A stretch of 64,000 nt of DNA from assembly GCA_023091665.1 (NCBI GenBank), contig JALJCQ010000023.1, positions 1,178,001 to 1,242,000 of the forward strand, in the 5' to 3' direction. Below the pieces are notes generated by a model. That model was not told the DNA's origin. It made no database searches and saw only the letters and a list, made by a program, of their open reading frames with translations. Positions 31,463-61,923 of this stretch are shown one piece after another; position 1 is the stretch's first letter; each line of letters starts with the position of its first letter. This stretch comes from Pythium myriotylum (lineage: Eukaryota > Oomycota > Peronosporomycetes > Pythiales > Pythiaceae). The translations under genes were made by a program, and so were the position numbers.

Positions 31463-33310
31463 TTAGTGGTTGCTTGATTGTGAAGTTAGATGTTGTTGCA
31501 GAGTCCGAATGACTGTGCAAAGCTTGTTGACAGTCAGTTCGCCTTGTATCTGGCGCTTCATTGCTTCTTCGAACAAACTTGGGTCGTCGTTGTATTGTTC
31601 CCGAACAAACGTGGCGATTAGCTTCATTCGAGAGAGTCGAGCCTTGTGTTGTTTTTTCTCGTGTGGCAAGAAGTCGACACCAGCTCGAAATTGATGACGT
31701 GCGGGATCGCTCTTCCAATGCTGAGTGATGTAGTCCTTCCAAGACGCCGCCTCTGGAAACTCTGATGTCAAAGCCGTGGTATCGTGAGGCAATGGAGTAT
31801 CTTGATGGCGTGGAGTTGCCACATGGCTGACCACCTCTGAGGTGCTTGGGTTCACGACCAAGTACTTCGACAGTTTCTGCTCGATCACGTCGCTTATCAT
31901 ATCCTTGAGTTTGTCAAAGGAAACCGGACCGTCTGTTCCGAGAGGTGATATATCAACACTTGAACTGGAGATCTTGGAAGCACTCGAACTGGAGATCTTG
32001 GACGCAGAGTTGACACTGATTTCGTTGACCCGGTCGATCATATCTGGAGCAAGCGCATCGCTTAGTGCATTCTCTTCGCGATCGAGGACGTCGTCCACAA
32101 GGTACCGCACTAGAGTTTCAGTCTGCTCTTTGGGAGCCCATCCTGCCCACCACTTGACCACCTTCAATGACCATGGGTGCGGTGCGAACATGAAACGGTA
32201 CTGGGCGCCTCCTCGCCGGAAGCAGTGCGATGTAAACCAGATGTCGTCGCCGAGGATACCTTTATCGATGCTGCTCGCGGCCGCGACAGTGTTCAGTACT
32301 TGAATGAAATTGTTGCCACTCATTGCCGAACCCCACTTAAAACTAACACGGTCAAATGATGTCGTCAGCGGGCGAGCCTCGGGAGCCCGACGTTTCTTGC
32401 TGGCTTACGTCCGCGGCACACGCGTGAGTGACGGGAACAGAACCTCATCGCCGGTCCATGAATGACCTAGAGACGAGACAGCGTAGTCGATCCACGCCTT
32501 CACATGCGTGAATGCCTCACACGCCCACTCGTCTGCAGGGAGGCGATGCATATGATACGTTCGACTTGCTGGCGGATCGTTGTCCGTTTTCCGATCGCGT
32601 ATGACGTAGGCTGCGAATTGAACATGCTCGTTGGGTTTCCGCAGCGATGGACGCTCAAGACCGTATTGCACGTCTCCGTACTTGATAGTCAGCACCTCGC
32701 TGATACGACACATCCCGTAGAAGCACAACGAGCTGACAGCGGTAAACCATACACGCATCGTCTCGTTGAACACCATCGCGCTCTGGAAAAACTGTAGCAT
32801 CTTGTCCAACATTGGTAGTGACATTGGGGAAGCACGTGCAGGTGTTCGCGACCCTTTCATCTTCTTGTTGAGACCAACCATCACCTGGCTGATCAGTACC
32901 GCCTTTGCAGGATTTCCCCGTGGGATGAGTTGCCCGTCACCGGCCTCCTCGACGATCCACTTGTCATGTGGATGGCCACCACGAAACATCTCTGGTGTTG
33001 CGTAATGCCAGGCGATGGCAGATCGAAGTTATTCAGCGGGCCATTGGCTGTTGTTTGCAGTTGATACCTGATTTATGAAGGCAGACATCACGCTCGGTAG
33101 TTCGACGAATCGAGTGGTTGTTGGGTTGGGGTATCCATGGTCCTCGCAGAACTTTGCAAATCGGCGGAGACTTCCCATGTAGTCCAGTGGTTGTTGGATT
33201 GGGGTATCCACGGTCCTCGCAGAACTTTGCAAATCGGCGGAGACTTCCCATGTAGTAACCACGACTCGTTGCATCAGTGGAGAAATCCCCGGACGTCCAC
33301 ACACATACAA
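31463..33310 (-). pseudogene. Crypton-type tyrosine recombinase, degraded
   Basis: One minus-strand frame from 33310 to the stop at 31463 carries a tyrosine-recombinase domain. Catalytic Arg is in CRISEVLTIKYGD (~32,700), His-x-x-Arg in SHCFRRGGAQYRF (~32,220), and the nucleophile Tyr probably in ETLVRYLVDD (~32,110). This R..HxxR..Y set with the FRRGGA signature is typical of Crypton elements. The C-terminal part has a tandem SASKISSS repeat and a basic tail. It is broken by TAA at 33029-33031, TAA at 32405-32407 and a 73-base tandem duplication (33111-33256) that shifts frame near the N-terminus. The second TAA overlaps a GTAAGC donor-like site, so an intron there is an alternative. Cryptons move as DNA circles; this copy looks dead. 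Confidence 0.75.
33111..33256. repeat. 73-base tandem duplication inside the Crypton gene
   Basis: 33111-33183 and 33184-33256 are near-identical (GTGGTTGTTGG.TTGGGGTATCC...CTTCCCATGTAGT). Both copies encode MGSLRRFAKFCED but in different frames, because 73 is not a multiple of three. Confidence 0.85.
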
Positions 33311-34998: not shown

Positions 34999-35003
34999 CC
35001 AGT
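34999..35003. other. Target-site duplication, left copy (CCAGT)
   Basis: CCAGT directly precedes the 5' LTR and recurs directly after the 3' LTR at 41866-41870. Confidence 0.95.
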
Positions 35004-35351
35004 TGTTAGAGTTAGTGGCTAGCTCAGTACATTTACCGTTTAGACAGTACCACTACGATGGTACAGGTTACACCTCTACGACTCGATATCTGGGGTATGT
35101 GGAGTTCAGTATCTCTCTCCAAAAGTTATTCACAGAAGATGTGTGGAATCAGGGAAGTTGCACACATCTTTGTATGGAGATACATAACTCAAGTGATCTT
35201 CAAATCACTTGAGATCTCTATGAACTACACTTCCAACACTGCAGTCCCTGTGAAACCGACTGCTCCAAATCTAAATACAACACTAAGCTATTTGCTCTCA
35301 TCTAGCGTCTCCTTCCTTCATCCGTCCGACCAACAAGTGCTACCCTCAACA
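35004..35351 (+). repeat. Copia 5' LTR (348 bases)
   Basis: Begins TGTTAGAGTTAGTGG and ends CTACCCTCAACA. Contains the palindromic AAGTGATCTTCAAATCACTT. Confidence 0.97.
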
Positions 35352-35367
35352 GGTTATGAGCCCAAGC
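35352..35367 (+). other. Primer-binding site, complementary to a tRNA-Met anticodon arm
   Basis: GGTTATGAGCCCAAGC abuts the LTR. Its complement, GCTTGGGCTCATAACC, folds as an anticodon arm with loop CTCATAA (anticodon CAT). This matches the internal priming site used by Drosophila copia, which uses a 5' half of initiator tRNA-Met. The gag-pol ATG (35356) lies inside the site. Confidence 0.6.
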
Positions 35368-38300
35368 TCCACCTCGTCTGACTTCCCCCGCCTTACAGGC
35401 GCCGATAACTATGACGTCTGGAAGACTCGTGTCCGCGCCCACCTCGACGGCAAGAACCTTCTACGTTTCGTCGACAACCCGGACTACGAGGGACTGTCCG
35501 CGCTCGATGCAGGCGACACGGATGAAGAGATGGAGTCAGCCTCGTCAGGATCGTCTGACGATCTCGAATCGAAGTCCGAATCAGAAGCTGACTCGGCCAC
35601 CGAGGAGTCGCAATCCGGTCTTTCGGCTGGCGATGTCGAGCCGGCAGTCGCTGCAGCTGTCGTCCGGAACCTCTCGATTAGCGATGCTCCAGCCAATGAC
35701 AGCGAGTCGAAGTCTGAAGAACCAACCCTTCCACCTGTGGCCCAAGTGCAAACCTTTACTGCTGCAGCCGAAGCCAAGAAAGCGCGCAAGGAAGCTAAAC
35801 GTGCGCGCCAGAAGGCCAAGGCGCGGGTGAAGGCAGCCAAAGCCGCGGCTCGTGCGAAGGCTAAAGCTGCCAAGGCCAAGGCGAAGGCTAGAGCGAAAGC
35901 AAAGCTCTCGGCCTCGCAGATCCGTCGCCTCAATGCCCAAGTCAAGTCTTTCCTGATGAAGACACTCGATGACAAGCACATCCGTGTCGTGAAGGGACTC
36001 GACAAGGCGTACGATATCTACCAAGCCATCTGCGATCGTTACAATGGGGCCAAGGCTTATGGGGACCCGTACACGATCATGAACTTCCTCTTCAACGCTC
36101 GATACAAGGAAGGCGATGACATTACGGAGTTCATCCTCAAATATGAAGACGCCATGGCCGGACTCAATACGGTACTCAACATTAGCCTCGATGACAACGT
36201 CGCCTCTGTCTTCCTTTTCAACGCGATGCCTGCCTCGTGGGAAGGAGAGATGCGAATCTGGCGTGGTAACCGTGACATCATCCCCTACCAAGAGCTGAAG
36301 AACAAGCTTGAGTCCTATGTGACCACCAAACTCGCGCACGAACGATTCGCGCTTGCTAAGGGAACTCCCGAAAGCACTGAGACCCAGAATGAACGAGCTC
36401 TGGTGTCGACTACCCCTGTGGAAACCCCACAGGCTCTCGCCAGCGTCACGAACAGCGACGCTCCAGCCTGTACCTACTGCGGGCGCATGTACCACGCAAT
36501 GGCAGTGTGCCGCGTGCTGATCAAGGACATCCAGAACGGTACAGTCAAGCCAAACACGGTGATCCCGACCGACTTCAAGATGCCCAACACCGGCAACCAG
36601 CGTGCAGCGACCAACGACCATGGAAACCGCCAGCACCCATACTCGCGTGCTCCGGGCCGAGGTGGTGGTCGCCGCAACAACAACACTCAACGAGATTATG
36701 TTCCAAACAATCGCAACACGGGTCGCAACAGCAATCAAAGCAACGGCGGGTACCAGCAGTCTCGACGTGACAATGCCATGATTGCGATTTCGGCTGCAAC
36801 GGCCACAGCCTACGGCCTTACGGCGAAGCACGACAACCTCATTGACCCGGTGTGGACCATTGACTCTGGCTGCACCCGTCACGTGACTTACTGCAACTTA
36901 TGGTTCACGTCAACGACGCCCTACACGGGCTGGATCACGGTTGGTGGGAAGAACCAGATACCTATCCTCGCCATCGGAACGGTAGCTCTCCGCGTGACAG
37001 ACTCGAAAGGTCAGCCGAAGACCCTTTCGATGCGCAACGTTCTTTACGCGCCAGAACTCAAGTTTAACTTGCTCTCAGTTCCGGCCGCTGTCAAAGACGA
37101 CTACCGCTTCTCGTTCAATCGATCACAATGCTCGATCAACACGAACCAAAACTTCACGGTCAAGGCTAAGATGGCTACTCACGCTGACTTATACCAGTTT
37201 AATGCCGACCCAACTATGGATGATCCGGGTGTGAACGAAGCCCACATCTCGATGCACGGTAAGAAGTCCATCGTGCTACTTCACAGACGGATGGGTCACC
37301 CTAACTTTCGTATTCTACAGACACTGCCTAAAACGCAAGCCGTGAACGATCACGAGCTCGAAGGCGTAGGATCCCTAACAGACTATACATGTCCTTCATG
37401 TGAGCTTGCTAAATCACATCGCCAACCTTTCTCGAAACGAGTATCCTTTGTTGAGCGTTCAAACTCTCCCTTAGAGAAAGTTCACAGCGATATTTGTGGA
37501 CCAATGCCTACGCCAAGCCTCACAGGCTGTCGATATTTCCTCATCTTCATTGACGACTGCACACGATTCATGGTCACATATGCTCTGAAGTCACGCTCGG
37601 AACTCTATGAGTGCTATGAAGACTTCAGGCGCAGGGCTCTGAACGTTTTTCGCGCAGACATACAGACTGTAGAGTACACAGCGATTGAATACGACCCTGA
37701 GATAAAAGCTCTACAGGCAGACAACGCTAAAGAATACGAAAAACTGGGAAAGATTCTGTGGGAAAAGTACGGAACACACACTCAATTCACGAATGCGTAC
37801 ACTCCACAACAGAATGGAGTGGCTGAACGTCGCATGCGCACCATCATGGAACGCGTTCGCGCTTTCCTCTTCGACGGTAATCTTCCACGTGTTCTCTGGG
37901 CCGAATGTGTCCGTCATGTGACTGACCTTATCAACATAATCCCGAGTGCTGCAACTGGTCACATCACACCATATGAGTTATGGCATGGCAAGGTACCATC
38001 GGTACTGAACCTTCGGGTATTTGGCTGCAAGGCGTACGTTCATGTCCCTGAAGAACGCCGGGATAAACTGGATCCCCGTGCCACTATTTGCATGTACCTT
38101 GGCCTCCCTAGCAACAAACGTGGTTTCCGCCTACTCAATGTACAAACGGGCAAGCTTGTTTACAGTCGTGACGTCACCTTTGATGAGTCAGTGTTCCCTA
38201 CCTTAGCATTCCTTGACGCCCCTGATGTCCTTGCTCCACCAAACGCGGACACTCAGGCACGTCCAGTCACACTCAACCCACCTGATCGCATCACCCTGTC

Positions 38301-40188
38301 GGATTCAACAGATGGTACGATTGTTCCGGAAAGAAGTGATCCCACTACCCTGGCCCCATCTCCCTCACTGCCCTCCTTGACTGATCCACTTCACCAAACA
38401 GAAGAGATATTCAGTTTCATTGCAACTCCGGGGTTATACGACAGAAAACGTCGACACTCTGAGATGCAACACTCGCATGGAGATGGTTTCACCACCACTG
38501 CATCCATAGGCACCTTACTCAACAGCTCAGAGGACATCTCTGATGAAACTGAAAGAACAACACTCATGTATACTCTACTTGCAGTGCGATACATCACGGA
38601 ACCACGTACATTCCACGAAGCCATGTCCTCGCCACATGCTGACCAGTGGCTTGAAGCTGCACACTCTGAGATCCAATCACACACTGACAATGGAACGTGG
38701 ACTCTGGTATCTCCGCCTAAAGGACGAAAAGTCTTGAGGAACCGATGGGTCTGGGTTGTAAAGTACAACGGCAACGGAGAAGTGGACCGATTCAAAGCAC
38801 GCCTTGTGATCAAAGGTTTCCTCCAAAGGCATGGCATTGACTACAATGAGATCTTTGCACCTGTCCTTCGAATGGAAGTCCTTCGCCTTCTTCTTGCGAT
38901 TGCAGCGATACTTGACTTTGAAATTCACCAAATGGATGTAAAGACTGCTTTTCTCAACGGATTCCTGGATGAAGAAATTTACATGGAGCAACCTGAAGGT
39001 TTTGTTATCCCAGGGAAGGAGCATTTGGTATGCAAGCTCCAGAAGAGTTTATACGGCCTCAAACAGGCGCCCCGAGTATGGTATCAAACCCTCGCGGCCT
39101 TTCTGGAGAGCATCAAATTCCGACGTCTCATCAAAGATCGGTGTGTCTTTGTCGGTTCGCTCCACGACCACACATGCTACATCGCAGTGTACGTCGACGA
39201 TCTTTTGATCATAGCTCCAAACCTTTCCCTCGTCAATGAAATCAAATCCGCCATGAAACAGCGTTTTTATATGACAGATTTAGGGGAGGTGAAGTACTTG
39301 CTCGGTTGGTCAATCGAACGCGACCGCCACGCCCGAACGATCTTCATTCACCAAGAGAAGTACGCTACCAAAGTCTTGGATCGCTTCAGTCAATTTGTGA
39401 CGCACCCTGTAACTACACCGGTCGATCGTAGTGTCAAACTCTCCAACGATACTTGTCCGAAGACAGATGGAGAAAGAGATATGATGAAGTCTATTCCATA
39501 TCGAGAGGCTGTGGGAAGCTTCATGTACCTAATGATTGGGACCCGTCCTGACCTCGCCTACTACATGAGAGAAGTTAGTCAGTTCCTCTCGAACCCAGGT
39601 GAAGAACACTGGAAGGCAGTTGTTCGAGGACTCAAATATGTGTCTGGCACCAAAGGTTATGGTTTAAAATTAGGAGGGGCCATGCAGAATCCCACCGCTA
39701 AACTCGCGAACAGTCTAATCGCTTACTCGGACTCCGACTATGCGAGCTGTCCTGACACGCGACGCTCCATTGGCGGCTTCGTCACGATGCTAGGAAGAAG
39801 TCCTATTTCATGGCTTTCCCGAAAACACCACACCGTTGTCCTATCTACAACAGAAGCAGAATACATTGCTCTATGTCACTGCATGCAGGAAGTCATATTC
39901 CTTAAAACCCTGCTTGGCGAACTTGGATTCAACACAACAACAGCAACAACCATTTATGAAGACAATCAGAGTTGCATCAAACTCGCCAACAACCCAGAAC
40001 TCCATGGTAGATCCAAACACATTGATATTCGATACCATTTTGTACAAGAAAAGGTTGAACGACAGCAATTCAATATTGTCTACTGTAACACAAAGGACAT
40101 GATTGCGGATATATTTACAAAAGCACTGCCAAAACCGCAATTTCTCTCCTTGCGTGGTCAACTTGGAGTACAAATTCTCAAGGAATAA
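35356..40188 (+). CDS. Copia gag-pol polyprotein, intact (1,610 residues)
   Basis: Gag begins at residue 1 (DNYDVWKTRVRAHLDGKNL) and resumes near 190 (FLMKTLDDKHI), separated by an insertion: acidic Ser/Glu/Asp-rich (~50-130), then a Lys/Ala/Arg-rich stretch (~139-183, e.g. AKAKAAKAKAKARAKAK). A CCHC knuckle (CTYCGRMYHAMAVC) is near 372. Protease has the DSG motif in WTIDSGCTRHV (~503). Integrase has the HHCC zinc site (HRRMGHPNF..CPSCELAKSH), with Asp in VHSDICGP, Asp in LQADNAKEY and Glu in TPQQNGVAERRM. RT has FKARLVIKGFLQ, QMDVKTAFLNG and YVDDLLIIA. RNase H has AYSDSDYASC, STTEAEYIAL, YEDNQS and SKHIDIRYHF. All catalytic residues looked for are present and there is no internal stop, so the copy looks functional. 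A single frame with no Gag/Pol shift is usual in Copia elements. Confidence 0.96.
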   Translation: MSPSSTSSDFPRLTGADNYDVWKTRVRAHLDGKNLLRFVDNPDYEGLSALDAGDTDEEMESASSGSSDDLESKSESEADSATEESQSGLSAGDVEPAVAAAVVRNLSISDAPANDSESKSEEPTLPPVAQVQTFTAAAEAKKARKEAKRARQKAKARVKAAKAAARAKAKAAKAKAKARAKAKLSASQIRRLNAQVKSFLMKTLDDKHIRVVKGLDKAYDIYQAICDRYNGAKAYGDPYTIMNFLFNARYKEGDDITEFILKYEDAMAGLNTVLNISLDDNVASVFLFNAMPASWEGEMRIWRGNRDIIPYQELKNKLESYVTTKLAHERFALAKGTPESTETQNERALVSTTPVETPQALASVTNSDAPACTYCGRMYHAMAVCRVLIKDIQNGTVKPNTVIPTDFKMPNTGNQRAATNDHGNRQHPYSRAPGRGGGRRNNNTQRDYVPNNRNTGRNSNQSNGGYQQSRRDNAMIAISAATATAYGLTAKHDNLIDPVWTIDSGCTRHVTYCNLWFTSTTPYTGWITVGGKNQIPILAIGTVALRVTDSKGQPKTLSMRNVLYAPELKFNLLSVPAAVKDDYRFSFNRSQCSINTNQNFTVKAKMATHADLYQFNADPTMDDPGVNEAHISMHGKKSIVLLHRRMGHPNFRILQTLPKTQAVNDHELEGVGSLTDYTCPSCELAKSHRQPFSKRVSFVERSNSPLEKVHSDICGPMPTPSLTGCRYFLIFIDDCTRFMVTYALKSRSELYECYEDFRRRALNVFRADIQTVEYTAIEYDPEIKALQADNAKEYEKLGKILWEKYGTHTQFTNAYTPQQNGVAERRMRTIMERVRAFLFDGNLPRVLWAECVRHVTDLINIIPSAATGHITPYELWHGKVPSVLNLRVFGCKAYVHVPEERRDKLDPRATICMYLGLPSNKRGFRLLNVQTGKLVYSRDVTFDESVFPTLAFLDAPDVLAPPNADTQARPVTLNPPDRITLSDSTDGTIVPERSDPTTLAPSPSLPSLTDPLHQTEEIFSFIATPGLYDRKRRHSEMQHSHGDGFTTTASIGTLLNSSEDISDETERTTLMYTLLAVRYITEPRTFHEAMSSPHADQWLEAAHSEIQSHTDNGTWTLVSPPKGRKVLRNRWVWVVKYNGNGEVDRFKARLVIKGFLQRHGIDYNEIFAPVLRMEVLRLLLAIAAILDFEIHQMDVKTAFLNGFLDEEIYMEQPEGFVIPGKEHLVCKLQKSLYGLKQAPRVWYQTLAAFLESIKFRRLIKDRCVFVGSLHDHTCYIAVYVDDLLIIAPNLSLVNEIKSAMKQRFYMTDLGEVKYLLGWSIERDRHARTIFIHQEKYATKVLDRFSQFVTHPVTTPVDRSVKLSNDTCPKTDGERDMMKSIPYREAVGSFMYLMIGTRPDLAYYMREVSQFLSNPGEEHWKAVVRGLKYVSGTKGYGLKLGGAMQNPTAKLANSLIAYSDSDYASCPDTRRSIGGFVTMLGRSPISWLSRKHHTVVLSTTEAEYIALCHCMQEVIFLKTLLGELGFNTTTATTIYEDNQSCIKLANNPELHGRSKHIDIRYHFVQEKVERQQFNIVYCNTKDMIADIFTKALPKPQFLSLRGQLGVQILKE

Positions 40189-40256: not shown

Positions 40257-41345
40257 TTAGTCCGTGAAGATGTCGACCTTGCGAATGAAAGCCATCTGAT
40301 CGATCCAGCGAGCGTAAACCTTGACCGGAATGAGCACCTCGCCGTCGATCGCGTAGTAGTTGTAGCGGAGCGCCAACATCGCGAAGCAATGCCCCACCTT
40401 GTTGCTGTTGTAGCCCGCCACGATGTACACGCCGTTGTTCAAGTGCTTCTGCAGGATGGCTTCGACAGTGCGATGTCCAGTATTGTGGACGTTGAAATCG
40501 ATGGAAGAAAAATTGATACGCGACCCACGCTCGAACGTAATAAACTTGATGAACGCACGGAAGACTTTCCATGTTGCCTTCGTGCAAGGGTCGAACCCAA
40601 ACAAAGTCTTGCCACGCTCCGAAAACTCTTTAACCCACGCGTCCTGAACTTCGTCTTCCTTGCCGAGAATGCTGAGGGCACGCTTCAAAGCGACGAACAT
40701 ACAGTTTCCGATATTGTTAGCTGCAATGATCCTCTGACCGAACGCACCGTCGGCTTGAGCGAACGCGATAAATCTCTCTGGCGTGCGCTCGGACTCATCG
40801 ACCGCCTTTGCGTACCGGTCGACCAGCGCAAGATGCTCTTCAAATCCCTTGAGATCCGATTTCGGTTGCCATGTTACCTTGCATGGGCCGCCATCGTTCC
40901 ACCAGATCACGCGATAGCTGTTCTTGGACTTGTTGTCGATCCGAAAGACCAGCCAAAGCTTAGTAAGGCGCCCCCTCTCCTTCTTGAGCGTGTAGTAGCA
41001 GCCATCTTCTTCGTAAAGCTCCTCTTCCTCCTCAAAAACCTCCATGGCGACGTTCCGGTTGCCAACAGAGAAGTACTCGATGGTACGCTTACCTGCCTTC
41101 CCGGTAGACAGATTACGCATTAGGAGCATCGTGCTGGCAGCCTCTTCTTCAGTTGCAGTGCCAGCACTTGCCGCAGCAGCCCGTTGAGTCGCCGGCTCGC
41201 TTGGAACACTGTCAGGATCATAGACCTCATTTTTCGCAACCCGAGATGCTCGGGGAGCCGTCTTTCTACTAGCTACCTTTGCCAACCCCTTTTTGGGGGC
41301 CTTTCCACCCGTACTGTATTTAGCGGTCTGCTTGGTAGGGGCCAT
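40257..41345 (-). CDS. Antisense accessory gene: histone H3-tail mimic + chromodomain-like + OTU-like cysteine protease
   Basis: 362 codons on the strand opposite gag-pol, ending 68 bases from the gag-pol stop. The frame is open to 41432, but the ATG at 41345 opens the H3-like sequence. Mature residues 1-30 match histone H3 at 21 positions: TKQTA with K4, STGGKAP with K14, K18, and the R26-K27-x-A-P end; R2, R8 and K9 are changed (P, K, Y). After an Ala-rich linker, residues ~128-180 (WLVFRIDNKSKNSYRVIWW..VTWQPKSDLKG..VDRYAK) fit a chromodomain, with an aromatic-rich face. Residues ~208-224 (ANNIGNCMFVALKRAL) match the OTU protease Cys box (Cys215); His319 in VGHCFAML and Asp334 in YAIDGE could complete the triad. 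It may copy or read chromatin marks and remove ubiquitin; all function is inference. The 3' LTR, 172 bases upstream, could supply the promoter. Confidence 0.8.
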   Translation of the reverse strand: MAPTKQTAKYSTGGKAPKKGLAKVASRKTAPRASRVAKNEVYDPDSVPSEPATQRAAAASAGTATEEEAASTMLLMRNLSTGKAGKRTIEYFSVGNRNVAMEVFEEEEELYEEDGCYYTLKKERGRLTKLWLVFRIDNKSKNSYRVIWWNDGGPCKVTWQPKSDLKGFEEHLALVDRYAKAVDESERTPERFIAFAQADGAFGQRIIAANNIGNCMFVALKRALSILGKEDEVQDAWVKEFSERGKTLFGFDPCTKATWKVFRAFIKFITFERGSRINFSSIDFNVHNTGHRTVEAILQKHLNNGVYIVAGYNSNKVGHCFAMLALRYNYYAIDGEVLIPVKVYARWIDQMAFIRKVDIFTD

Positions 41346-41510
41346 GGTGGTCTGAGCTATCAGCAGTGTAACCGCCGCGTAACCAAGATCCGGAGTATGG
41401 CTCAATACCGTTGCCGCACATGTGATCTCCAATGGAGTGCTTATATTATACGGGTCAATATCCCGTACGGTCTTTTCCTGAAAATGTCACAGACGTACTG
41501 AACTAATCCA

Positions 41511-41517: not shown

Positions 41518-41865
41518 TGTTAGAGTTAGTGGCTAGCTCAGTACATTTACCGTTTAGACAGTACCACTACGATGGTACAGGTTACACCTCTACGACTCGA
41601 TATCTGGGGTATGTGGAGTACAGTATCTCTCTCCAAAAGTTATTCACAGAAGATGTGTGGAATCGGGGAAGTTACACACATCTTTGTATGGAGATACATA
41701 ACTCAAGTGATCTTCAAATCACTTGAGATCTCTATGAACTACACTTCCAACACTGCAGTCCCTGTGAAACCGACTGCTCCAAATCTAAATACAACACTAA
41801 GCTATTTGCTCTCATCTAGCGTCTCCTTCCTTCATCCGTCCGACCAACAAGTGCTACCCTCAACA
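41518..41865 (+). repeat. Copia 3' LTR (348 bases)
   Basis: Same length and ends as the 5' LTR. Visible differences are GAGTACAG versus GAGTTCAG, ATCGGGG versus ATCAGGG, and GTTACAC versus GTTGCAC. Confidence 0.97.
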
Positions 41866-41870
41866 CCAGT
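41866..41870. other. Target-site duplication, right copy (CCAGT)
   Basis: Perfect match to 34999-35003. Confidence 0.95.
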
Positions 41871-49481: not shown

Positions 49482-49659
49482 AGAACAACGGGACAGGACG
49501 GTAGCACAGGAGGGCAGTCGAGGAACGGAGGAGTGGAAGAAAGCAGAGCATCAGAACACCACAACAGCATGGGAGCAGCGAAGCAGAGGAGCGAGTTGGT
49601 GGGTTGAGACGGACGGCAAAACAGCAATATGGCATAACGGCAGAGCGACCGACCGACAG

Positions 49660-49747
49660 CTCGTCAGCTCGTCAGCTCGAGAGCTCGACAGCTCGCAGCC
49701 CGACAGCTCGACAGCTCGACAGCTCGACAGCTCGACAGCTCGACAGC
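49660..49747. repeat. 8-base minisatellite CAGCTCGA, first of one per unit
   Basis: Runs of CAGCTCGA with variants (CAGCCCGA, CAGCTCGT). Copy number differs between units and accounts for part of the length variation. Confidence 0.85.
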
Positions 49748-49824
49748 AGAGTAAAGCACGATAGCACAGTACAGTCCGACAGCACGACAGAGCACAAGGG
49801 CAGCATAGCACGACAAGAGAGTGG

Positions 49825-49948
49825 CAGGACGGCAGGACGGCAGGACGGCGGGACGGCGGGACGGCGGGACGGCGGGACGGCGGGACGGCGGGATGGCGGG
49901 ATGGCAGGACGGCGGGACGGCGGGGCGGCGGGACGGCGGGAGGAGGGG
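49825..49948. repeat. 8-base minisatellite GACGGCGG/GACGGCAG, first of one per unit
   Basis: Runs of GACGGCGG with interspersed GACGGCAG and GATGGCGG. Units 1 and 3 have the longer version; others are shorter. Confidence 0.85.
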
Positions 49949-50201
49949 TAGGCAAGACGAGAGGTAGGCAAGGCGGCATATCGAATGGGTAGTAAGAGGA
50001 GGTCAAATGGGTGAGAGAGAGTGCATAGAGCGGGGGTCGTAGGGTGGCAGGAGTCGTGTGATGTGCGATGTGTTCAATGTGATGCAGTGTGCGGTGAAGC
50101 AGGGAGTAAAAGAGTGGGCGTGAGGGCAACGAATAACAACGAATAACTGGAAGATGAGGAGGCTAGAAGACGGTTGTGTGCGTGGTCGGGGAGCAAGAAA
50201 T

Positions 50202-50273
50202 GGACGTTGGGGGTATCGATCCCCCTACCTCCCGCATGCGAAGCGGGCGCTCTACCATCTGAGCTAAACGCCC
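50202..50273 (-). tRNA. tRNA-Ala (anticodon CGC), copy 1
   Basis: 72 bases on the minus strand fold as a full cloverleaf. The acceptor stem is GGGCGTT/AACGTCC, including the G3:U70 wobble pair that specifies alanine. The D arm has the A-box TTAGCTCAGATGG. The anticodon stem CCCGC/GCGGG has loop TTCGCAT (anticodon CGC, codon GCG). The T arm GGGGG/CCCCC has loop ATCGATA (A54, as in other eukaryotic tRNA-Ala). No intron; CCA is not encoded. The next base run downstream is TTTC, not the usual TTTT; the first T4 on the transcribed strand is about 90 bases on (50108-50111). All ten copies in the window look identical. Confidence 0.97.
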
Positions 50274-51670
50274 ATACAACTGATACCTCGCCCAGAAACC
50301 CTCACAAACTCATCACAACATCAACACAACACACAACACTTACAAACACACAGACGCACACACCAACACACCGACACACACAAAAACTGCCCACATACGC
50401 CCAACGCACACCACAATCAACTCGAACCCACTCAGCAAACACCACTCAACGTCCTTCAGCCCCATTCGTGCCAAACGCTTCCGCTCGACAGATCCACTCC
50501 ACATCATCGTCCTCGCCATCGTCCACGCTCACTCTCATCCCTCCATCTCCCCACCGTGCTCCCCCACGGATCCACGCTACGAGAACACGCCGGTTTGCGT
50601 CATCATCACTGCGAGGACCCTCGCTCCCTCGGTTCGAGTCTTGGTCGGGGATATTCTATGAGATATAATACTTCGGAGCGACGCCGCAGTTTGCCGCGGG
50701 GGCGTGGATCTAAGCAACGGGGGTCGCGTGTTGGAAGCCGAGCGCGAGTTCGATGGGTTGCTCGTGGTCAATAACATTTTGGAGCGAGCCGAACGGAGAG
50801 CAATGAGCAAGAGTGCGCGCGAGGTGCTAAGGCGGAGGGTGGTAAGAGCATGAGGCGGTAAGACGGGGGAGAGGACGGGGGAGAGGGCGGGGACGGGGCG
50901 CGGGCGGCGGGGGCGGGGGCGGGGGAGAGAACAACGGGACAGGACGGTAGCACAGGAGGGCAGTCGAGGAACGGAGGAGTGGAAGAAAGCAGAGCATCAG
51001 AACACCACAACAGCATGGGAGCAGCGAAGCAGAGGAGCGAGTTGGTGGGTTGAGACGGACGGCAAAACAGCAATATGGCATAACGGCAGAGCGACCGACC
51101 GACAGCTCGTCAGCTCGTCAGCTCGAGAGCTCGACAGCTCGCAGCCCGACAGCTCGACAGCCCGACAGCTCGCAGCCCGACAGCTCGACAGCTCGACAGC
51201 TCGACAGCTCGACAGCTCGACAGCTCGACAGCAGAGTAAAGCACGATAGCACAGTACAGTCCGACAGCACAGCAGAGCACAAGGGCAGCATAGCACGACA
51301 AGAGAGTGGCAGGACGGCAGGACGGCAGGACGGCGGGACGGCGGGACGGCGGGATGGCAGGACGGCGGGACGGCGGGGCGGCGGGACGGCGGGAGGAGGG
51401 GTAGGCAAGACGAGGGGTAGGCAAGACGAGGGGTAGGCAAGGCGGCATATCGAATGGGTAGTAAGAGGAGGTCAAATGGGTGAGAGAGAGTGCATAGAGC
51501 GGGGGTCGTAGGGTGGCAGGAGTCGTGTGATGTGCGATGTGTTCAATGTGATGCAGTGTGCGGTGAAGCAGGGAGTAAAAGAGTGGGCGTGAGGGCAACG
51601 AATAACAACGAATAACTGGAAGATGAGGAGGCTAGAAGACGGTTGTGTGCGTGGTCGGGGAGCAAGAAAT

Positions 51671-51742
51671 GGACGTTGGGGGTATCGATCCCCCTACCTC
51701 CCGCATGCGAAGCGGGCGCTCTACCATCTGAGCTAAACGCCC
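51671..51742 (-). tRNA. tRNA-Ala (CGC), copy 2
   Basis: Identical to copy 1; 1,469 bases further on. Confidence 0.97.
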
Positions 51743-53116
51743 ATACAACTGATACCTCGCCCAGAAACCCTCACAAACTCATCACAACATCAACACAACA
51801 CACAACACTTACAAACACACAGACGCACACACCAACACACCGACACACACAAAAACTGCCCACATACGCCCAACGCACACCACAATCAACTCGAACCCAC
51901 TCAGCAAACACCACTCAACGTCCTTCAGCCGCATTCGTGCCAAACGCTTCCGCTCGACAGATCCACTCCACATCATCGTCCTCGCCATCGTCCACGCTCA
52001 CTCTCATCCCTCCATCTCCCCACCGTGCTCCCCCACGGATCCACGCTACGAGAACACGCCGGTTTGCGTCATCATCACTGCGAGGACCCTCGCTCCCTCG
52101 GTTCGAGTCTTGGTCGGGGATATTCTATGAGATATAATACTTCGGAGCGGCGCCGCAGTTTGCCGCGGGGGCGTGGATCTAAGCAACGGGGGTCGCGTGT
52201 TGGAAGCCGAGCGCGAGTTCGATGGGTTGCTCGTGGTCAATAACATTTTGGAGCGAGCCGAACGGAGAGCAATGAGCAAGAGTGCGCGCGAGGTGCTAAG
52301 GCGGAGGGTGGTAAGAGCATGAGGCGGTAAGACGGGGGAGAGGACGGGGGAGAGGGCGGGGACGGGGCGCGGGCGGCGGGGGCGGGGGCGGGGGAGAGAA
52401 CAACGGGACAGGACGGTAGCACAGGAGGGCAGTCGAGGAACGGAGGAGTGGAAGAAAGCAGAGCATCAGAACACCACAACAGCATGGGAGCAGCGAAGCA
52501 GAGGAGCGAGTTGGTGGGTTGAGACGGACGGCAAAACAGCAATATGGCATAACGGCAGAGCGACCGACCGACAGCTCGTCAGCTCGTCAGCTCGAGAGCT
52601 CGACAGCTCGCAGCCCGACAGCTCGACAGCTCGACAGCTCGACAGCTCGACAGCTCGACAGCAGAGTAAAGCACGATAGCACAGTACAGTCCGACAGCAC
52701 GACAGAGCACAAGGGCAGCATAGCACGACAAGAGAGTGGCAGGACGGCAGGACGGCAGGACGGCGGGACGGCGGGACGGCGGGACGGCGGGACGGCGGGA
52801 CGGCGGGATGGCGGGATGGCAGGACGGCGGGACGGCGGGGCGGCGGGACGGCGGGAGGAGGGGTAGGCAAGACGAGAGGTAGGCAAGGCGGCATATCGAA
52901 TGGGTAGTAAGAGGAGGTCAAATGGGTGAGAGAGAGTGCATAGAGCGGGGGTCGTAGGGTGGCAGGAGTCGTGTGATGTGCGATGTGTTCAATGTGATGC
53001 AGTGTGCGGTGAAGCAGGGAGTAAAAGAGTGGGCGTGAGGGCAACGAATAACAACGAATAACTGGAAGATGAGGAGGCTAGAAGACGGTTGTGTGCGTGG
53101 TCGGGGAGCAAGAAAT

Positions 53117-53188
53117 GGACGTTGGGGGTATCGATCCCCCTACCTCCCGCATGCGAAGCGGGCGCTCTACCATCTGAGCTAAACGCCC
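53117..53188 (-). tRNA. tRNA-Ala (CGC), copy 3
   Basis: Identical to copy 1; 1,446 bases after copy 2. Confidence 0.97.
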
Positions 53189-54577
53189 ATACAACTGATA
53201 CCTCGCCCAGAAACCCTCACAAACTCATCACAACATCAACACAACACACAACACTTACAAACACACAGACGCACACACCAACACACCGACACACACAAAA
53301 ACTGCCCACATACGCCCAACGCACACCACAATCAACTCGAACCCACTCAGCAAACACCACTCAACGTCCTTCAGCCCCATTCGTGCCAAACGCTTCCGCT
53401 CGACAGATCCACTCCACATCATCGTCCTCGCCATCGTCCACGCTCACTCTCATCCCTCCATCTCCCCACCGTGCTCCCCCACGGATCCACGCTACGAGAA
53501 CACGCCGGTTTGCGTCATCATCACTGCGAGGACCCTCGCTCCCTCGGTTCGAGTCTTGGTCGGGGATATTCTATGAGATATAATACTTCGGAGCGACGCC
53601 GCAGTTTGCCGCGGGGGCGTGGATCTAAGCAACGGGGGTCGCGTGTTGGAAGCCGAGCGCGAGTTCGATGGGTTGCTCGTGGTCAATAACATTTTGGAGC
53701 GAGCCGAACGGAGAGCAATGAGCAAGAGTGCGCGCGAGGTGCTAAGGCGGAGGGTGGTAAGAGCATGAGGCGGTAAGACGGGGGAGAGGACGGGGGAGAG
53801 GGCGGGGACGGGGCGCGGGCGGCGGGGGCGGGGGCGGGGGAGAGAACAACGGGACAGGACGGTAGCACAGGAGGGCAGTCGAGGAACGGAGGAGTGGAAG
53901 AAAGCAGAGCATCAGAACACCACAACAGCATGGGAGCAGCGAAGCAGAGGAGCGAGTTGGTGGGTTGAGACGGACGGCAAAACAGCAATATGGCATAACG
54001 GCAGAGCGACCGACCGACAGCTCGTCAGCTCGTCAGCTCGAGAGCTCGACAGCTCGCAGCCCGACAGCTCGACAGCCCGACAGCTCGCAGCCCGACAGCT
54101 CGACAGCTCGACAGCTCGACAGCTCGACAGCTCGACAGCAGAGTAAAGCACGATAGCACAGTACAGTCCGACAGCACAGCAGAGCACAAGGGCAGCATAG
54201 CACGACAAGAGAGTGGCAGGACGGCAGGACGGCAGGACGGCGGGACGGCGGGACGGCGGGATGGCAGGACGGCGGGACGGCGGGGCGGCGGGACGGCGGG
54301 AGGAGGGGTAGGCAAGACGAGGGGTAGGCAAGACGAGAGGTAGGCAAGGCGGCATATCGAATGGGTAGTAAGAGGAGGTCAAATGGGTGAGAGAGAGTGC
54401 ATAGAGCGGGGGTCGTAGGGTGGCAGGAGTCGTGTGATGTGCGATGTGTTCAATGTGATGCAGTGTGCGGTGAAGCAGGGAGTAAAAGAGTGGGCGTGAG
54501 GGCAACGAATAACAACGAATAACTGGAAGATGAGGAGGCTAGAAGACGGTTGTGTGCGTGGTCGGGGAGCAAGAAAT

Positions 54578-54649
54578 GGACGTTGGGGGTATCGATCCCC
54601 CTACCTCCCGCATGCGAAGCGGGCGCTCTACCATCTGAGCTAAACGCCC
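54578..54649 (-). tRNA. tRNA-Ala (CGC), copy 4
   Basis: Identical to copy 1; 1,461 bases after copy 3. Confidence 0.97.
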
Positions 54650-55999
54650 ATACAACTGATACCTCGCCCAGAAACCCTCACAAACTCATCACAACATCAA
54701 CACAACACACAACACTTACAAACACACAGACGCACACACCAACACACCGACACACACAAAAACTGCCCACATACGCCCAACGCACACCACAATCAACTCG
54801 AACCCACCCAGCAAACACCACTCAACGTCCTTCAGCCCCATTCGTGCCAAACGCTTCCGCTCGACAGATCCACTCCACATCATCGTCCTCGCCATCGTCC
54901 ACGCCCACTCTCATCCCTCCATCTCCCCACCGTGCTCCCCCACGGATCCACGCTACGAGAACACGCCGGTTTGCGTCATCATCACTGCGAGGACCCTCGC
55001 TCCCTCGGTTCGAGTCTTGGTCGGGGATATTCTATGAGATATAATACTTCGGAGCGACGCCGCAGTTTGCCGCGGGGGCGTGGATCTAAGCAACGGGGGT
55101 CGCGTGTTGGAAGCCGAGCGCGAGTTCGATGGGTTGCTCGTGGTCAATAACATTTTGGAGCGAGCCGAACGGAGAGCAATGAGCAAGAGTGCGCGCGAGG
55201 TGCTAAGGCGGAGGGTGGTAAGAGCATGAGGCGGTAAGACGGGGGAGAGGACGGGGGAGAGGGCGGGGACGGGGCGCGGGCGGCGGGGGCGGGGGCGGGG
55301 GAGAGAACAACGGGACAGGACGGTAGCACAGGAGGGCAGTCGAGGAACGGAGGAGTGGAAGAAAGCAGAGCATCAGAACACCACAACAGCATGGGAGCAG
55401 CGAAGCAGAGGAGCGAGTTGGTGGGTTGAGACGGACGGCAAAACAGCAATATGGCATAACGGCAGAGCGACCGACCGACAGCTCGTCAGCTCGTCAGCTC
55501 GAGAGCTCGACAGCTCGCAGCCCGACAGCTCGACAGCTCGACAGCTCGACAGCTCGACAGCTCGACAGCAGAGTAAAGCACGATAGCACAGTACAGTCCG
55601 ACAGCACAGCAGAGCACAAGGGCAGCATAGCACGACAAGAGAGTGGCAGGACGGCAGGACGGCAGGACGGCGGGACGGCGGGACGGCGGGATGGCAGGAC
55701 GGCGGGACGGCGGGGCGGCGGGACGGCGGGACGGCGGGAGGAGGGGTAGGCAAGACGAGAGGTAGGCAAGGCGGCATATCGAATGGGTAGTAAGAGGAGG
55801 TCAAATGGGTGAGAGAGAGTGCATAGAGCGGGGGTCGTAGGGTGGCAGGAGTCGTGTGATGTGCGATGTGTTCAATGTGATGCAGTGTGCGGTGAAGCAG
55901 GGAGTAAAAGAGTGGGCGTGAGGGCAACGAATAACAACGAATAACTGGAAGATGAGGAGGCTAGAAGACGGTTGTGTGCGTGGTCGGGGAGCAAGAAAT

Positions 56000-56071
56000 G
56001 GACGTTGGGGGTATCGATCCCCCTACCTCCCGCATGCGAAGCGGGCGCTCTACCATCTGAGCTAAACGCCC
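56000..56071 (-). tRNA. tRNA-Ala (CGC), copy 5
   Basis: Identical to copy 1; 1,422 bases after copy 4, the shortest spacing. Confidence 0.97.
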
Positions 56072-57460
56072 ATACAACTGATACCTCGCCCAGAAACCCT
56101 CACAAACTCATCACAACATCAACACAACACACAACACTTACAAACACACAGACGCACACACCAACACACCGACACACACAAAAACTGCCCACATACGCCC
56201 AACGCACACCACAATCAACTCGAACCCACTCAGCAAACACCACTCAACGTCCTTCAGCCGCATTCGTGCCAAACGCTTCCGCTCGACAGATCCACTCCAC
56301 ATCATCGTCCTCGCCATCGTCCACGCTCACTCTCATCCCTCCATCTCCCCACCGTGCTCCCCCACGGATCCACGCTACGAGAACACGCCGGTTTGCGTCA
56401 TCATCACTGCGAGGACCCTCGCTCCCTCGGTTCGAGTCTTGGTCGGGGATATTCTATGAGATATAATACTTCGGAGCGACGCCGCAGTTTGCCGCGGGGG
56501 CGTGGATCTAAGCAACGGGGGTCGCGTGTTGGAAGCCGAGCGCGAGTTCGATGGGTTGCTCGTGGTCAATAACATTTTGGAGCGAGCCGAACGGAGAGCA
56601 ATGAGCAAGAGTGCGCGCGAGGTGCTAAGGCGGAGGGTGGTAAGAGCATGAGGCGGTAAGACGGGGGAGAGGACGGGGGAGAGGGCGGGGACGGGGCGCG
56701 GGCGGCGGGGGCGGGGGCGGGGGAGAGAACAACGGGACAGGACGGTAGCACAGGAGGGCAGTCGAGGAACGGAGGAGTGGAAGAAAGCAGAGCATCAGAA
56801 CACCACAACAGCATGGGAGCAGCGAAGCAGAGGAGCGAGTTGGTGGGTTGAGACGGACGGCAAAACAGCAATATGGCATAACGGCAGAGCGACCGACCGA
56901 CAGCTCGTCAGCTCGTCAGCTCGAGAGCTCGACAGCTCGCAGCCCGACAGCTCGACAGCCCGACAGCTCGCAGCCCGACAGCTCGACAGCTCGACAGCTC
57001 GACAGCTCGACAGCTCGACAGCAGAGTAAAGCACGATAGCACAGTACAGTCCGACAGCACAGCAGAGCACAAGGGCAGCATAGCACGACAAGAGAGTGGC
57101 AGGACGGCAGGACGGCAGGACGGCGGGACGGCGGGACGGCGGGATGGCAGGACGGCGGGACGGCGGGGCGGCGGGACGGCGGGAGGAGGGGTAGGCAAGA
57201 CGAGGGGTAGGCAAGACGAGAGGTAGGCAAGGCGGCATATCGAATGGGTAGTAAGAGGAGGTCAAATGGGTGAGAGAGAGTGCATAGAGCGGGGGTCGTA
57301 GGGTGGCAGGAGTCGTGTGATGTGCGATGTGTTCAATGTGATGCAGTGTGCGGTGAAGCAGGGAGTAAAAGAGTGGGCGTGAGGGCAACGAATAACAACG
57401 AATAACTGGAAGATGAGGAGGCTAGAAGACGGTTGTGTGCGTGGTCGGGGAGCAAGAAAT

Positions 57461-57532
57461 GGACGTTGGGGGTATCGATCCCCCTACCTCCCGCATGCGA
57501 AGCGGGCGCTCTACCATCTGAGCTAAACGCCC
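57461..57532 (-). tRNA. tRNA-Ala (CGC), copy 6
   Basis: Identical to copy 1; 1,461 bases after copy 5. Confidence 0.97.
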
Positions 57533-58921
57533 ATACAACTGATACCTCGCCCAGAAACCCTCACAAACTCATCACAACATCAACACAACACACAACACTT
57601 ACAAACACACAGACGCACACACCAACACACCGACACACACAAAAACTGCCCACATACGCCCAACGCACACCACAATCAACTCGAACCCACTCAGCAAACA
57701 CCACTCAACGTCCTTCAGCCCCATTCGTGCCAAACGCTTCCGCTCGACAGATCCACTCCACATCATCGTCCTCGCCATCGTCCACGCTCACTCTCATCCC
57801 TCCATCTCCCCACCGTGCTCCCCCACGGATCCACGCTACGAGAACACGCCGGTTTGCGTCATCATCACTGCGAGGACCCTCGCTCCCTCGGTTCGAGTCT
57901 TGGTCGGGGATATTCTATGAGATATAATACTTCGGAGCGACGCCGCAGTTTGCCGCGGGGGCGTGGATCTAAGCAACGGGGGTCGCGTGTTGGAAGCCGA
58001 GCGCGAGTTCGATGGGTTGCTCGTGGTCAATAACATTTTGGAGCGAGCCGAACGGAGAGCAATGAGCAAGAGTGCGCGCGAGGTGCTAAGGCGGAGGGTG
58101 GTAAGAGCATGAGGCGGTAAGACGGGGGAGAGGACGGGGGAGAGGGCGGGGACGGGGCGCGGGCGGCGGGGGCGGGGGCGGGGGAGAGAACAACGGGACA
58201 GGACGGTAGCACAGGAGGGCAGTCGAGGAACGGAGGAGTGGAAGAAAGCAGAGCATCAGAACACCACAACAGCATGGGAGCAGCGAAGCAGAGGAGCGAG
58301 TTGGTGGGTTGAGACGGACGGCAAAACAGCAATATGGCATAACGGCAGAGCGACCGACCGACAGCTCGTCAGCTCGTCAGCTCGAGAGCTCGACAGCTCG
58401 CAGCCCGACAGCTCGACAGCCCGACAGCTCGCAGCCCGACAGCTCGACAGCTCGACAGCTCGACAGCTCGACAGCTCGACAGCAGAGTAAAGCACGATAG
58501 CACAGTACAGTCCGACAGCACAGCAGAGCACAAGGGCAGCATAGCACGACAAGAGAGTGGCAGGACGGCAGGACGGCAGGACGGCGGGACGGCGGGACGG
58601 CGGGATGGCAGGACGGCGGGACGGCGGGGCGGCGGGACGGCGGGAGGAGGGGTAGGCAAGACGAGGGGTAGGCAAGACGAGAGGTAGGCAAGGCGGCATA
58701 TCGAATGGGTAGTAAGAGGAGGTCAAATGGGTGAGAGAGAGTGCATAGAGCGGGGGTCGTAGGGTGGCAGGAGTCGTGTGATGTGCGATGTGTTCAATGT
58801 GATGCAGTGTGCGGTGAAGCAGGGAGTAAAAGAGTGGGCGTGAGGGCAACGAATAACAACGAATAACTGGAAGATGAGGAGGCTAGAAGACGGTTGTGTG
58901 CGTGGTCGGGGAGCAAGAAAT

Positions 58922-58993
58922 GGACGTTGGGGGTATCGATCCCCCTACCTCCCGCATGCGAAGCGGGCGCTCTACCATCTGAGCTAAACGCCC
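58922..58993 (-). tRNA. tRNA-Ala (CGC), copy 7
   Basis: Identical to copy 1; 1,461 bases after copy 6. Confidence 0.97.
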
Positions 58994-60390
58994 ATACAAC
59001 TGATACCTCGCCCAGAAACCCTCACAAACTCATCACAACATCAACACAACACACAACACTTACAAACACACAGACGCACACACCAACACACCGACACACA
59101 CAAAAACTGCCCACATACGCCCAACGCACACCACAATCAACTCGAACCCACTCAGCAAACACCACTCAACGTCCTTCAGCCCCATTCGTGCCAAACGCTT
59201 CCGCTCGACAGATCCACTCCACATCATCGTCCTCGCCATCGTCCACGCTCACTCTCATCCCTCCATCTCCCCACCGTGCTCCCCCACGGATCCACGCTAC
59301 GAGAACACGCCGGTTTGCGTCATCATCACTGCGAGGACCCTCGCTCCCTCGGTTCGAGTCTTGGTCGGGGATATTCTATGAGATATAATACTTCGGAGCG
59401 ACGCCGCAGTTTGCCGCGGGGGCGTGGATCTAAGCAACGGGGGTCGCGTGTTGGAAGCCGAGCGCGAGTTCGATGGGTTGCTCGTGGTCAATAACATTTT
59501 GGAGCGAGCCGAACGGAGAGCAATGAGCAAGAGTGCGCGCGAGGTGCTAAGGCGGAGGGTGGTAAGAGCATGAGGCGGTAAGACGGGGGAGAGGACGGGG
59601 GAGAGGGCGGGGACGGGGCGCGGGCGGCGGGGGCGGGGGCGGGGGAGAGAACAACGGGACAGGACGGTAGCACAGGAGGGCAGTCGAGGAACGGAGGAGT
59701 GGAAGAAAGCAGAGCATCAGAACACCACAACAGCATGGGAGCAGCGAAGCAGAGGAGCGAGTTGGTGGGTTGAGACGGACGGCAAAACAGCAATATGGCA
59801 TAACGGCAGAGCGACCGACCGACAGCTCGTCAGCTCGTCAGCTCGAGAGCTCGACAGCTCGCAGCCCGACAGCTCGACAGCCCGACAGCTCGCAGCCCGA
59901 CAGCTCGACAGCTCGACAGCTCGACAGCTCGACAGCTCGACAGCAGAGTAAAGCACGATAGCACAGTACAGTCCGACAGCACAGCAGAGCACAAGGGCAG
60001 CATAGCACGACAAGAGAGTGGCAGGACGGCAGGACGGCAGGACGGCGGGACGGCGGGACGGCGGGACGGCGGGATGGCAGGACGGCGGGACGGCGGGGCG
60101 GCGGGACGGCGGGAGGAGGGGTAGGCAAGACGAGGGGTAGGCAAGACGAGAGGTAGGCAAGGCGGCATATCGAATGGGTAGTAAGAGGAGGTCAAATGGG
60201 TGAGAGAGAGTGCATAGAGCGGGGGTCGTAGGGTGGCAGGAGTCGTGTGATGTGCGATGTGTTCAATGTGATGCAGTGTGCGGTGAAGCAGGGAGTAAAA
60301 GAGTGGGCGTGAGGGCAACGAATAACAACGAATAACTGGAAGATGAGGAGGCTAGAAGACGGTTGTGTGCGTGGTCGGGGAGCAAGAAAT

Positions 60391-60462
60391 GGACGTTGGG
60401 GGTATCGATCCCCCTACCTCCCGCATGCGAAGCGGGCGCTCTACCATCTGAGCTAAACGCCC
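60391..60462 (-). tRNA. tRNA-Ala (CGC), copy 8
   Basis: Identical to copy 1; 1,469 bases after copy 7. Confidence 0.97.
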
Positions 60463-61851
60463 ATACAACTGATACCTCGCCCAGAAACCCTCACAAACTC
60501 ATCACAACATCAACACAACACACAACACTTACAAACACACAGACGCACACACCAACACACCGACACACACAAAAACTGCCCACATACGCCCAACGCACAC
60601 CACAATCAACTCGAACCCACTCAGCAAACACCACTCAACGTCCTTCAGCCCCATTCGTGCCAAACGCTTCCGCTCGACAGATCCACTCCACATCATCGTC
60701 CTCGCCATCGTCCACGCTCACTCTCATCCCTCCATCTCCCCACCGTGCTCCCCCACGGATCCACGCTACGAGAACACGCCGGTTTGCGTCATCATCACTG
60801 CGAGGACCCTCGCTCCCTCGGTTCGAGTCTTGGTCGGGGATATTCTATGAGATATAATACTTCGGAGCGACGCCGCAGTTTGCCGCGGGGGCGTGGATCT
60901 AAGCAACGGGGGTCGCGTGTTGGAAGCCGAGCGCGAGTTCGATGGGTTGCTCGTGGTCAATAACATTTTGGAGCGAGCCGAACGGAGAGCAATGAGCAAG
61001 AGTGCGCGCGAGGTGCTAAGGCGGAGGGTGGTAAGAGCATGAGGCGGTAAGACGGGGGAGAGGACGGGGGAGAGGGCGGGGACGGGGCGCGGGCGGCGGG
61101 GGCGGGGGCGGGGGAGAGAACAACGGGACAGGACGGTAGCACAGGAGGGCAGTCGAGGAACGGAGGAGTGGAAGAAAGCAGAGCATCAGAACACCACAAC
61201 AGCATGGGAGCAGCGAAGCAGAGGAGCGAGTTGGTGGGTTGAGACGGACGGCAAAACAGCAATATGGCATAACGGCAGAGCGACCGACCGACAGCTCGTC
61301 AGCTCGTCAGCTCGAGAGCTCGACAGCTCGCAGCCCGACAGCTCGACAGCCCGACAGCTCGCAGCCCGACAGCTCGACAGCTCGACAGCTCGACAGCTCG
61401 ACAGCTCGACAGCAGAGTAAAGCACGATAGCACAGTACAGTCCGACAGCACAGCAGAGCACAAGGGCAGCATAGCACGACAAGAGAGTGGCAGGACGGCA
61501 GGACGGCAGGACGGCGGGACGGCGGGACGGCGGGATGGCAGGACGGCGGGACGGCGGGGCGGCGGGACGGCGGGAGGAGGGGTAGGCAAGACGAGGGGTA
61601 GGCAAGACGAGAGGTAGGCAAGGCGGCATATCGAATGGGTAGTAAGAGGAGGTCAAATGGGTGAGAGAGAGTGCATAGAGCGGGGGTCGTAGGGTGGCAG
61701 GAGTCGTGTGATGTGCGATGTGTTCAATGTGATGCAGTGTGCGGTGAAGCAGGGAGTAAAAGAGTGGGCGTGAGGGCAACGAATAACAACGAATAACTGG
61801 AAGATGAGGAGGCTAGAAGACGGTTGTGTGCGTGGTCGGGGAGCAAGAAAT

Positions 61852-61923
61852 GGACGTTGGGGGTATCGATCCCCCTACCTCCCGCATGCGAAGCGGGCGC
61901 TCTACCATCTGAGCTAAACGCCC
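61852..61923 (-). tRNA. tRNA-Ala (CGC), copy 9
   Basis: Identical to copy 1; 1,461 bases after copy 8. Confidence 0.97.

Follow-up and report, generated by a model that had tools for sequence, protein, structure and literature searches.

An antisense gene with a histone H3-like tail, a chromodomain-like segment and a predicted peptidase domain in a Copia retrotransposon of Pythium myriotylum

Several long terminal repeat (LTR) retrotransposons of plants, namely Grande (gene23), RIRE2, Retand and PvRetro13, encode an extra protein with a proposed nuclear or accessory role in an open antisense frame between pol and the 3' LTR, the aORF-3R (PMC7264820). As far as the consulted part of that source goes, no clear database similarity is described for these proteins, except that PvRetro13 has an SMC domain and Retand a transposase-28 domain (PMC7264820). 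Here we analysed a 64,000-nucleotide stretch of the oomycete Pythium myriotylum (contig JALJCQ010000023.1, positions 1,178,001 to 1,242,000 of the forward strand; hereafter the window), in which a Copia retrotransposon carries an antisense gene at the same place and in the same orientation. The aORF-3R hosts covered by that source are plant elements, whereas this one is an oomycete Copia whose antisense product appears to combine a histone H3 tail, a chromodomain and a peptidase domain (PMC7264820).

Other systems share single aspects of this gene. VANC of the Arabidopsis VANDAL transposons is an element-encoded anti-silencing protein, an activity that was shown there and is proposed here, and the available portion of its description mentions neither a histone mimic nor a peptidase (PMC10398659). 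The accessory modules of open reading frame 3 (ORF3) in bdelloid LTR retrotransposons are likewise common to several retroelement lineages; those in the accessible text are of Env-like, esterase or exonuclease type, without a histone tail (PMC5408684). Viral histone mimics such as influenza NS1 (PMC10208167, seen in part), and the host mimic PCLAF/PAF15, are also partial copies of the H3 tail, but are short motifs. A related antisense protein on contig C22 of the same genome matched the Pfam family PAF at E 0.011, below the cut-off. We know of no viral or host histone mimic that is joined to both a chromodomain and a cysteine peptidase, or that resides in a retrotransposon. No described counterpart of the protein architecture was found among Pfam families or among the matches listed from open PubMed Central papers. 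The position, that of an antisense extra ORF, is of a known kind, and the architecture, as read from the sequence, seems to be new. For the antisense accessory genes of plant elements, the source above offers just two domains as hints of a role (PMC7264820); this protein can be interpreted along its whole length.

An antisense gene in a young Copia element

The window element is bounded by two LTRs of 348 nucleotides with TG...CA ends (5' LTR, 35004-35351; 3' LTR, 41518-41865; both plus strand), which differ at 3 of 348 positions, and a CCAGT target-site duplication is present on both flanks (34999-35003 and 41866-41870). Its gag-pol is a single open frame of 1610 amino acids on the plus strand (35356-40188, stop at 40188). 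Since the LTR mismatches are few and contig C12 holds an element 99% identical to it, with one LTR mismatch, the element has moved recently and is young. The antisense frame (40257-41345, minus strand) sits between the gag-pol stop and the 3' LTR and comprises 362 codons without an inner stop, as in the aORF-3R of plants; translation and coordinates confirmed what a reading made from the sequence alone (the sequence-only reading) had claimed, a 362-codon frame inside a Copia element and opposite to gag-pol. Its ATG lies in ACCACCATGG (41342-41351, minus strand), which we take to be a good eukaryotic start context.

The antisense gene was present in all three of the closest pol copies (C23, C12 and C22) and in none of seven more distant loci, these being the five Copia loci next in similarity (60-65% at pol) and two loci (L057, L058) of a large family with 49% pol identity. 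The Copia pol search scored 86 of 958 candidates, and these seven were the only more distant loci fetched. In the C12 copy the antisense gene is 99% identical and is frameshifted by a 17-bp deletion in the tail, with three further base changes (read by eye). At this place (C12:495499-496564) the tail shows 3 mismatches in 78 nucleotides plus the 17-bp deletion, compared with 25 mismatches in 4539 aligned element columns.

The C22 copy (L003/L014/L059) is a 5'-truncated Copia broken by another insertion, and its antisense frame begins with MARTKQTAKKSTGGKAPRKSLAKAASRKYAK, followed by a related body. Its pol shares 92.4% DNA identity with the window pol over 2578 columns, until about window position 40145, beyond which blastn (E <= 1e-3) found no further match between the two. 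Despite the 92% identity of the pol DNA, the two antisense proteins, both with long open frames, share no more than about 35% identity. Such different antisense genes of one family beside similar pol genes suggest either that modules were exchanged close to the end of pol or that change was very fast. The insertion inside the C22 pol (L059 1183-2637) is unrelated to the element and has a frame that we take to resemble a tyrosine recombinase.

The H3-like tail and its family

The first 30 residues after Met (41253-41342, minus strand) matched the H3 tail ARTKQTARKSTGGKAPRKQ at 21 of 30 positions, with Tyr at position 9. The alignment thus bore out the match, and the replacement of K9, that the sequence-only reading had described. 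A 41-residue H3 tail searched against the 58.7 Mb genome found the window frame at E 5.8e-6, and the 15 matches at E <= 1 comprised four H3 genes and, from the antisense-gene family, 11 places: the window frame, its C12 copy, one C22 frame and eight copies in a tandem array on contig C9. Similarly, the family profile matched H3-type chains of the PDB, from 2.5e-10. A histone fold after the tail was not found, the profile matches ending at position 35-51 (best 60 of 165 PDB matches), and the Pfam scan of the window protein gave no histone family.

Seven tails were compared, each with 21-23 of 30 residues identical to H3. T3, Q5, A7, S10-K14, P16, L20, A24, R26 and K27 are invariant in all seven; every tail departs from H3 at positions 22, 25 and 28, and every tail except C9, which retains R8, does so at position 8 as well. 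K4 is present in six tails and Lys9 in five; one has Arg at position 9, and Tyr9 occurs in the window copy alone. Outside the C9 array, all six tails have changes in both ARKS boxes, the one around K9 and the one around K27; in these tails the K9 box reads AKYS, AKKS, ASKS, AGKS, AAKS or AGRS and the K27 box SRKT, SRKY, SRKA, QRKA, CRKV or QRKY. The hypergeometric probability of this alteration was 0.018 with six tails and 0.094 when the seventh was included, for a pattern noticed post hoc in non-independent sequences.

Between the C22 and window proteins, 24 of 30 residues are identical in the tail (Met counted), 13 of 70 in the linker, 23 of 59 in the chromodomain and 62 of 172 in the peptidase region. 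The sequence-only reading had named neutral evolution as an outcome that would tell against it; pN was 0.19 and pS 0.92 in the tail, against 0.45 and 0.68 for the whole frame, in a comparison of one sequence pair with a short tail and saturated synonymous change. The same codon is used at only 9 of the 24 tail residues common to the pair. In the two Copia-borne tails, 8-11 of 21-24 codons are those of host H3 genes, and in C9 the count is 4-5 of 21, while the host H3 genes have 22-30 of 30 tail codons in common among themselves. Because the residues are kept and the codons mostly differ, the amino acids of the tail have been held while the DNA drifted; judged by these comparisons, the tail is under strong amino-acid constraint.

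Used alone as a query, the window protein retrieved a single record at E <= 1, which was of histone type. A body-only profile without tails (A2) retrieved one metagenome protein, P0003, at E 3.4e-59, and P0003 begins with an H3 tail. With the P0003 body added, again without tail, profile A3 gave six matches at E <= 10: P0003, three Phytophthora infestans proteins (P0004, P0007 and P0008), one from P. fragariaefolia and one partial protein from P. megakarya. Four of the six start with an H3 tail; the two without it are the P. infestans models P0007 and P0008, which are shorter at the N-terminus and share 92% and 80% identity with P0004, respectively. As tail-less profiles retrieve tailed proteins, the tail belongs to the family. 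The same searches, together with the synonymous saturation, ruled out both a chance resemblance to H3 and a fresh copying of the tail from a host H3 gene; on this evidence chance is excluded as its source. The sequence-only reading had also considered a capture found only here. The fusion recurs in Phytophthora, in the metagenome protein and in the C12 (frameshifted) and C22 copies of the Copia family, and, by sequence comparison, is not confined to the window element.

The C9 array (C9:2504906-2515345; L050, L051) consists of eight near-identical units about 1.4 kb apart, each with MVPTKQTARKSTGGKAPRAKLSSIASRKTAP, a reader-like-looking stretch and a DGLCGFHAVRAA box near the frame end; the frame of the H3-tail gene stops after this Cys box in every unit. 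The array genes are preceded by a tRNA B box-like motif and an ACAT repeat, and neither ARAGORN nor Rfam (gathering threshold) identified the motif as a tRNA. Adjoining this array is a second tandem array, whose units are about 1.3 kb long and in four cases include a tRNA-Pro gene. Decayed family copies with stops lie at the contig starts of C15 and C20, the former with ARTNQTAKKSTGG and a later GH motif. Relatives of the body without a clear tail were found on C13, C22 (a second place, C22b), C24, C6 and C1, and P0004 aligns to the C13 relative from its residue 16. The C13 and C22b relatives (C13:806575-807510 and C22:1459420-1460436) are 90% identical open frames with no clear H3 start, each beside a similar coiled-coil-like frame and closest to P0003, and are possible host-side relatives. 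The C1 copy (L004) was considered as the same antisense order behind another Copia and rejected, the pol piece there facing the other way.

In a tree of 11 bodies, which omits P0007, P0008, the C9 array and the C15 and C20 fragments, the two Copia-borne genes group together (92/95), as do the Phytophthora genes (98/97), and P0003 joins C13/C22b (90/90). C6 forms a long branch, and the deeper forks lack resolution. A viral origin was also considered; scanning viral contigs with P0003 produced four pattern matches and no relative.

Chromodomain and predicted peptidase domain

The segment that the sequence-only reading had called chromodomain-like (about residues 128-190; 40776-40964, minus strand) was supported by the family profile A6, not by the window protein alone in Pfam. 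Against PDB sequences, A6 matched CDYL at E 1.3e-6, and also HP1, Clr4 and Polycomb, and the family shows the chromodomain profile pattern W/Y-x-V..Y-x-V-x-W..WEP..L. Pfam Chromo matched three of seven chromodomain pieces (best 4.3e-4), and single full-length proteins, including the window protein, stayed below its cut-off. The predicted structure of P0004 has strands (E46-57, E60-69, E78-84) and helices (H85-90, H94-104), which give the three-strand sheet and C-terminal helix expected of a chromodomain, in a block with a pLDDT of 56-80. At the level of the family profile, the middle segment is a chromodomain. The methyl-lysine aromatic cage of chromodomains is made of three aromatics; in A6, W11 and W32 are invariant and the third cage position varies.

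The C-terminal part (about residues 208-360; 40266-40724, minus strand) was assigned from AlphaFold2 models and their fold comparison. The sequence-only reading had seen an OTU-like cysteine box here. The IGNCMF box with later His and Asp is present, whereas the OTU identity gained no specific support: fold comparison indicated the wider papain-like group, with YopQ, C39, staphopain and SpvD ranking above Josephin types; no OTU entry appeared in either comparison among the 50 matches listed, and Pfam scans of the family proteins gave no OTU match. An OTU deubiquitinase as such is therefore not favoured. Cys and His occur in all six sequences compared (P0001, C22 and P0003-P0006), followed by Asp in five and by Glu, with Asp as the next residue, in C22. 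In the window protein the Cys-His distance is 104 residues and the His-Asp distance 15 (Cys215-His319-Asp334; predicted catalytic codons at 40701-40703, 40389-40391 and 40344-40346, minus strand); the relatives have an acidic residue equally spaced to Asp334. P0008 lacks the Cys box, and the decayed copy L006 has Arg in place of His. Josephin and other papain-like deubiquitinases and peptidases resemble the modelled domain in fold and in Cys-His-Asp order, and the peptidase region of the family gave no sequence-level match to such enzymes. The C-terminus is thus a predicted papain-like cysteine peptidase (clan CA), which could be a deubiquitinase or a protease.

Possible functions and other repeats

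We tentatively propose, at somewhat less than even confidence, that the product is a nuclear, element-encoded anti-silencing factor. At silenced copies, the chromodomain would anchor the protein to nucleosomes that carry methylated H3, where the peptidase would remove ubiquitin from, or cut, H3 or a silencing protein. The H3 tail would serve as bait or decoy towards the enzymes and readers of H3 residues 1-27; it keeps T3, Q5, A7, S10-T11-G12-G13-K14, P16 and R26-K27, but with both ARKS boxes altered, as they are outside the C9 array, it would be a poor carrier of silencing marks. A fuller version, which we consider less likely than not, is a retroviral-style accessory protein encoded antisense in an oomycete retrotransposon, joining a disarmed H3 decoy, a chromodomain to locate silenced chromatin and a peptidase that erases a signal such as H3K14 ubiquitin. 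In fission yeast, according to the available part of one study, H3K14 ubiquitin and H3K9me3 are mutually reinforcing, and one unmarkable H3 gene of three weakens heterochromatin, which shows how a decoy and an eraser could act (PMC13079825). Crosslinking and modelling, as presented in the part of a second source that was available, suggest a contact between the Clr4 chromodomain and ubiquitinated H3K14 (PMC12407891). If this fuller version were true, the gene would, to our knowledge, be the first case of a transposable element that encodes an anti-silencing enzyme mimicking a histone tail. The gene offers a candidate protein for anti-silencing, a natural series of H3-tail variants from which the important residues can be read and, possibly, a way to act on oomycete chromatin.

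The peptidase might instead clip H3 tails, its own tail serving as a pseudosubstrate or propeptide that fills the active site as long as no genuine H3 takes its place. Cathepsin L and other papain-family enzymes cut H3 near residues 21-27 and are held inactive by N-terminal propeptides, and this account would suit the predicted fold with Cys-His-Asp and the alteration of positions 22, 25 and 28 in all tails with R26-K27 retained. The chromodomain and a linker of variable length, however, lie between tail and peptidase, the tail is of low confidence in both AlphaFold2 models and the activity itself is only predicted; we consider clipping unlikely. An explanation that we likewise doubt is that the tail is only a nuclear import signal and chromatin tether, for the protein or the pre-integration complex, with the chromodomain steering integration as in chromoviruses. 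H3 tails have importins and nucleosomal DNA among their binding partners, many Lys and Arg residues are retained here and a chromodomain is present. Moreover, Grande GENE23, an antisense accessory protein from the same place, is nuclear in the portion of the source consulted (PMC7264820). A plain import signal, however, needs no uncharged S10-T11-G12-G13, Q5 or L20, all invariant in the seven tails, and the chromodomain module lies outside pol.

It is rather improbable that Copia passively captured a host chromatin gene, an H3-tail chromodomain peptidase, as a passenger with a host function. In favour of such a capture, relatives occur in Phytophthora, and the body relatives on C13, C22b, C24 and C6 have no recognised same-family Copia in their flanks (about 1.5 kb only). 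Against it, the Copia-borne pair groups together, yet has diverged far beyond its pol, which suggests that the association arose repeatedly, that modules were exchanged or that change was very fast; in addition, at least three related proteins are present in P. infestans (the P0004 cluster has eight members, possibly including duplicate records), and several copies in this genome are broken. A functionless chance resemblance or dead capture, to which the frameshifted C12 copy and the stops in C15 and C20 might point, is very improbable, given a tail retained at 21-23 of 30 residues in seven sequences, synonymous saturation and long open frames at about 35% identity.

CoLT, the centromeric Copia of Phytophthora sojae, is likewise an oomycete Copia, located within H3K9me3/H3K27me3 chromatin, and the accessible text on it does not mention an antisense H3-tail gene (PMC7082073); two loci (L057, L058) of the cluster-forming Copia of this genome also lack the gene. 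This latter family, whose pol is 49% identical, forms clusters like the CoLT clusters that mark P. sojae centromeres, with one cluster per contig listed: C1 1.90-2.09 Mb, C12 2.49-2.55 Mb, C14 2.00-2.05 Mb, C18 0.98-1.02 Mb, C22 4-88 kb, C30 2.21-2.25 Mb and others. By this analogy, the clusters are possibly centromeres.

Elsewhere in the window, a long tandem array (49551-63779) repeats one pair of opposite frames ten times at a spacing of about 1.42-1.47 kb. Its frames, of 162-197 amino acids on the minus strand and 164 on the plus strand, have a biased composition, and the array is likely a satellite rather than a set of genes. Two minus-strand frames at 31463-32989 resemble, we presume, a Crypton-type tyrosine recombinase.
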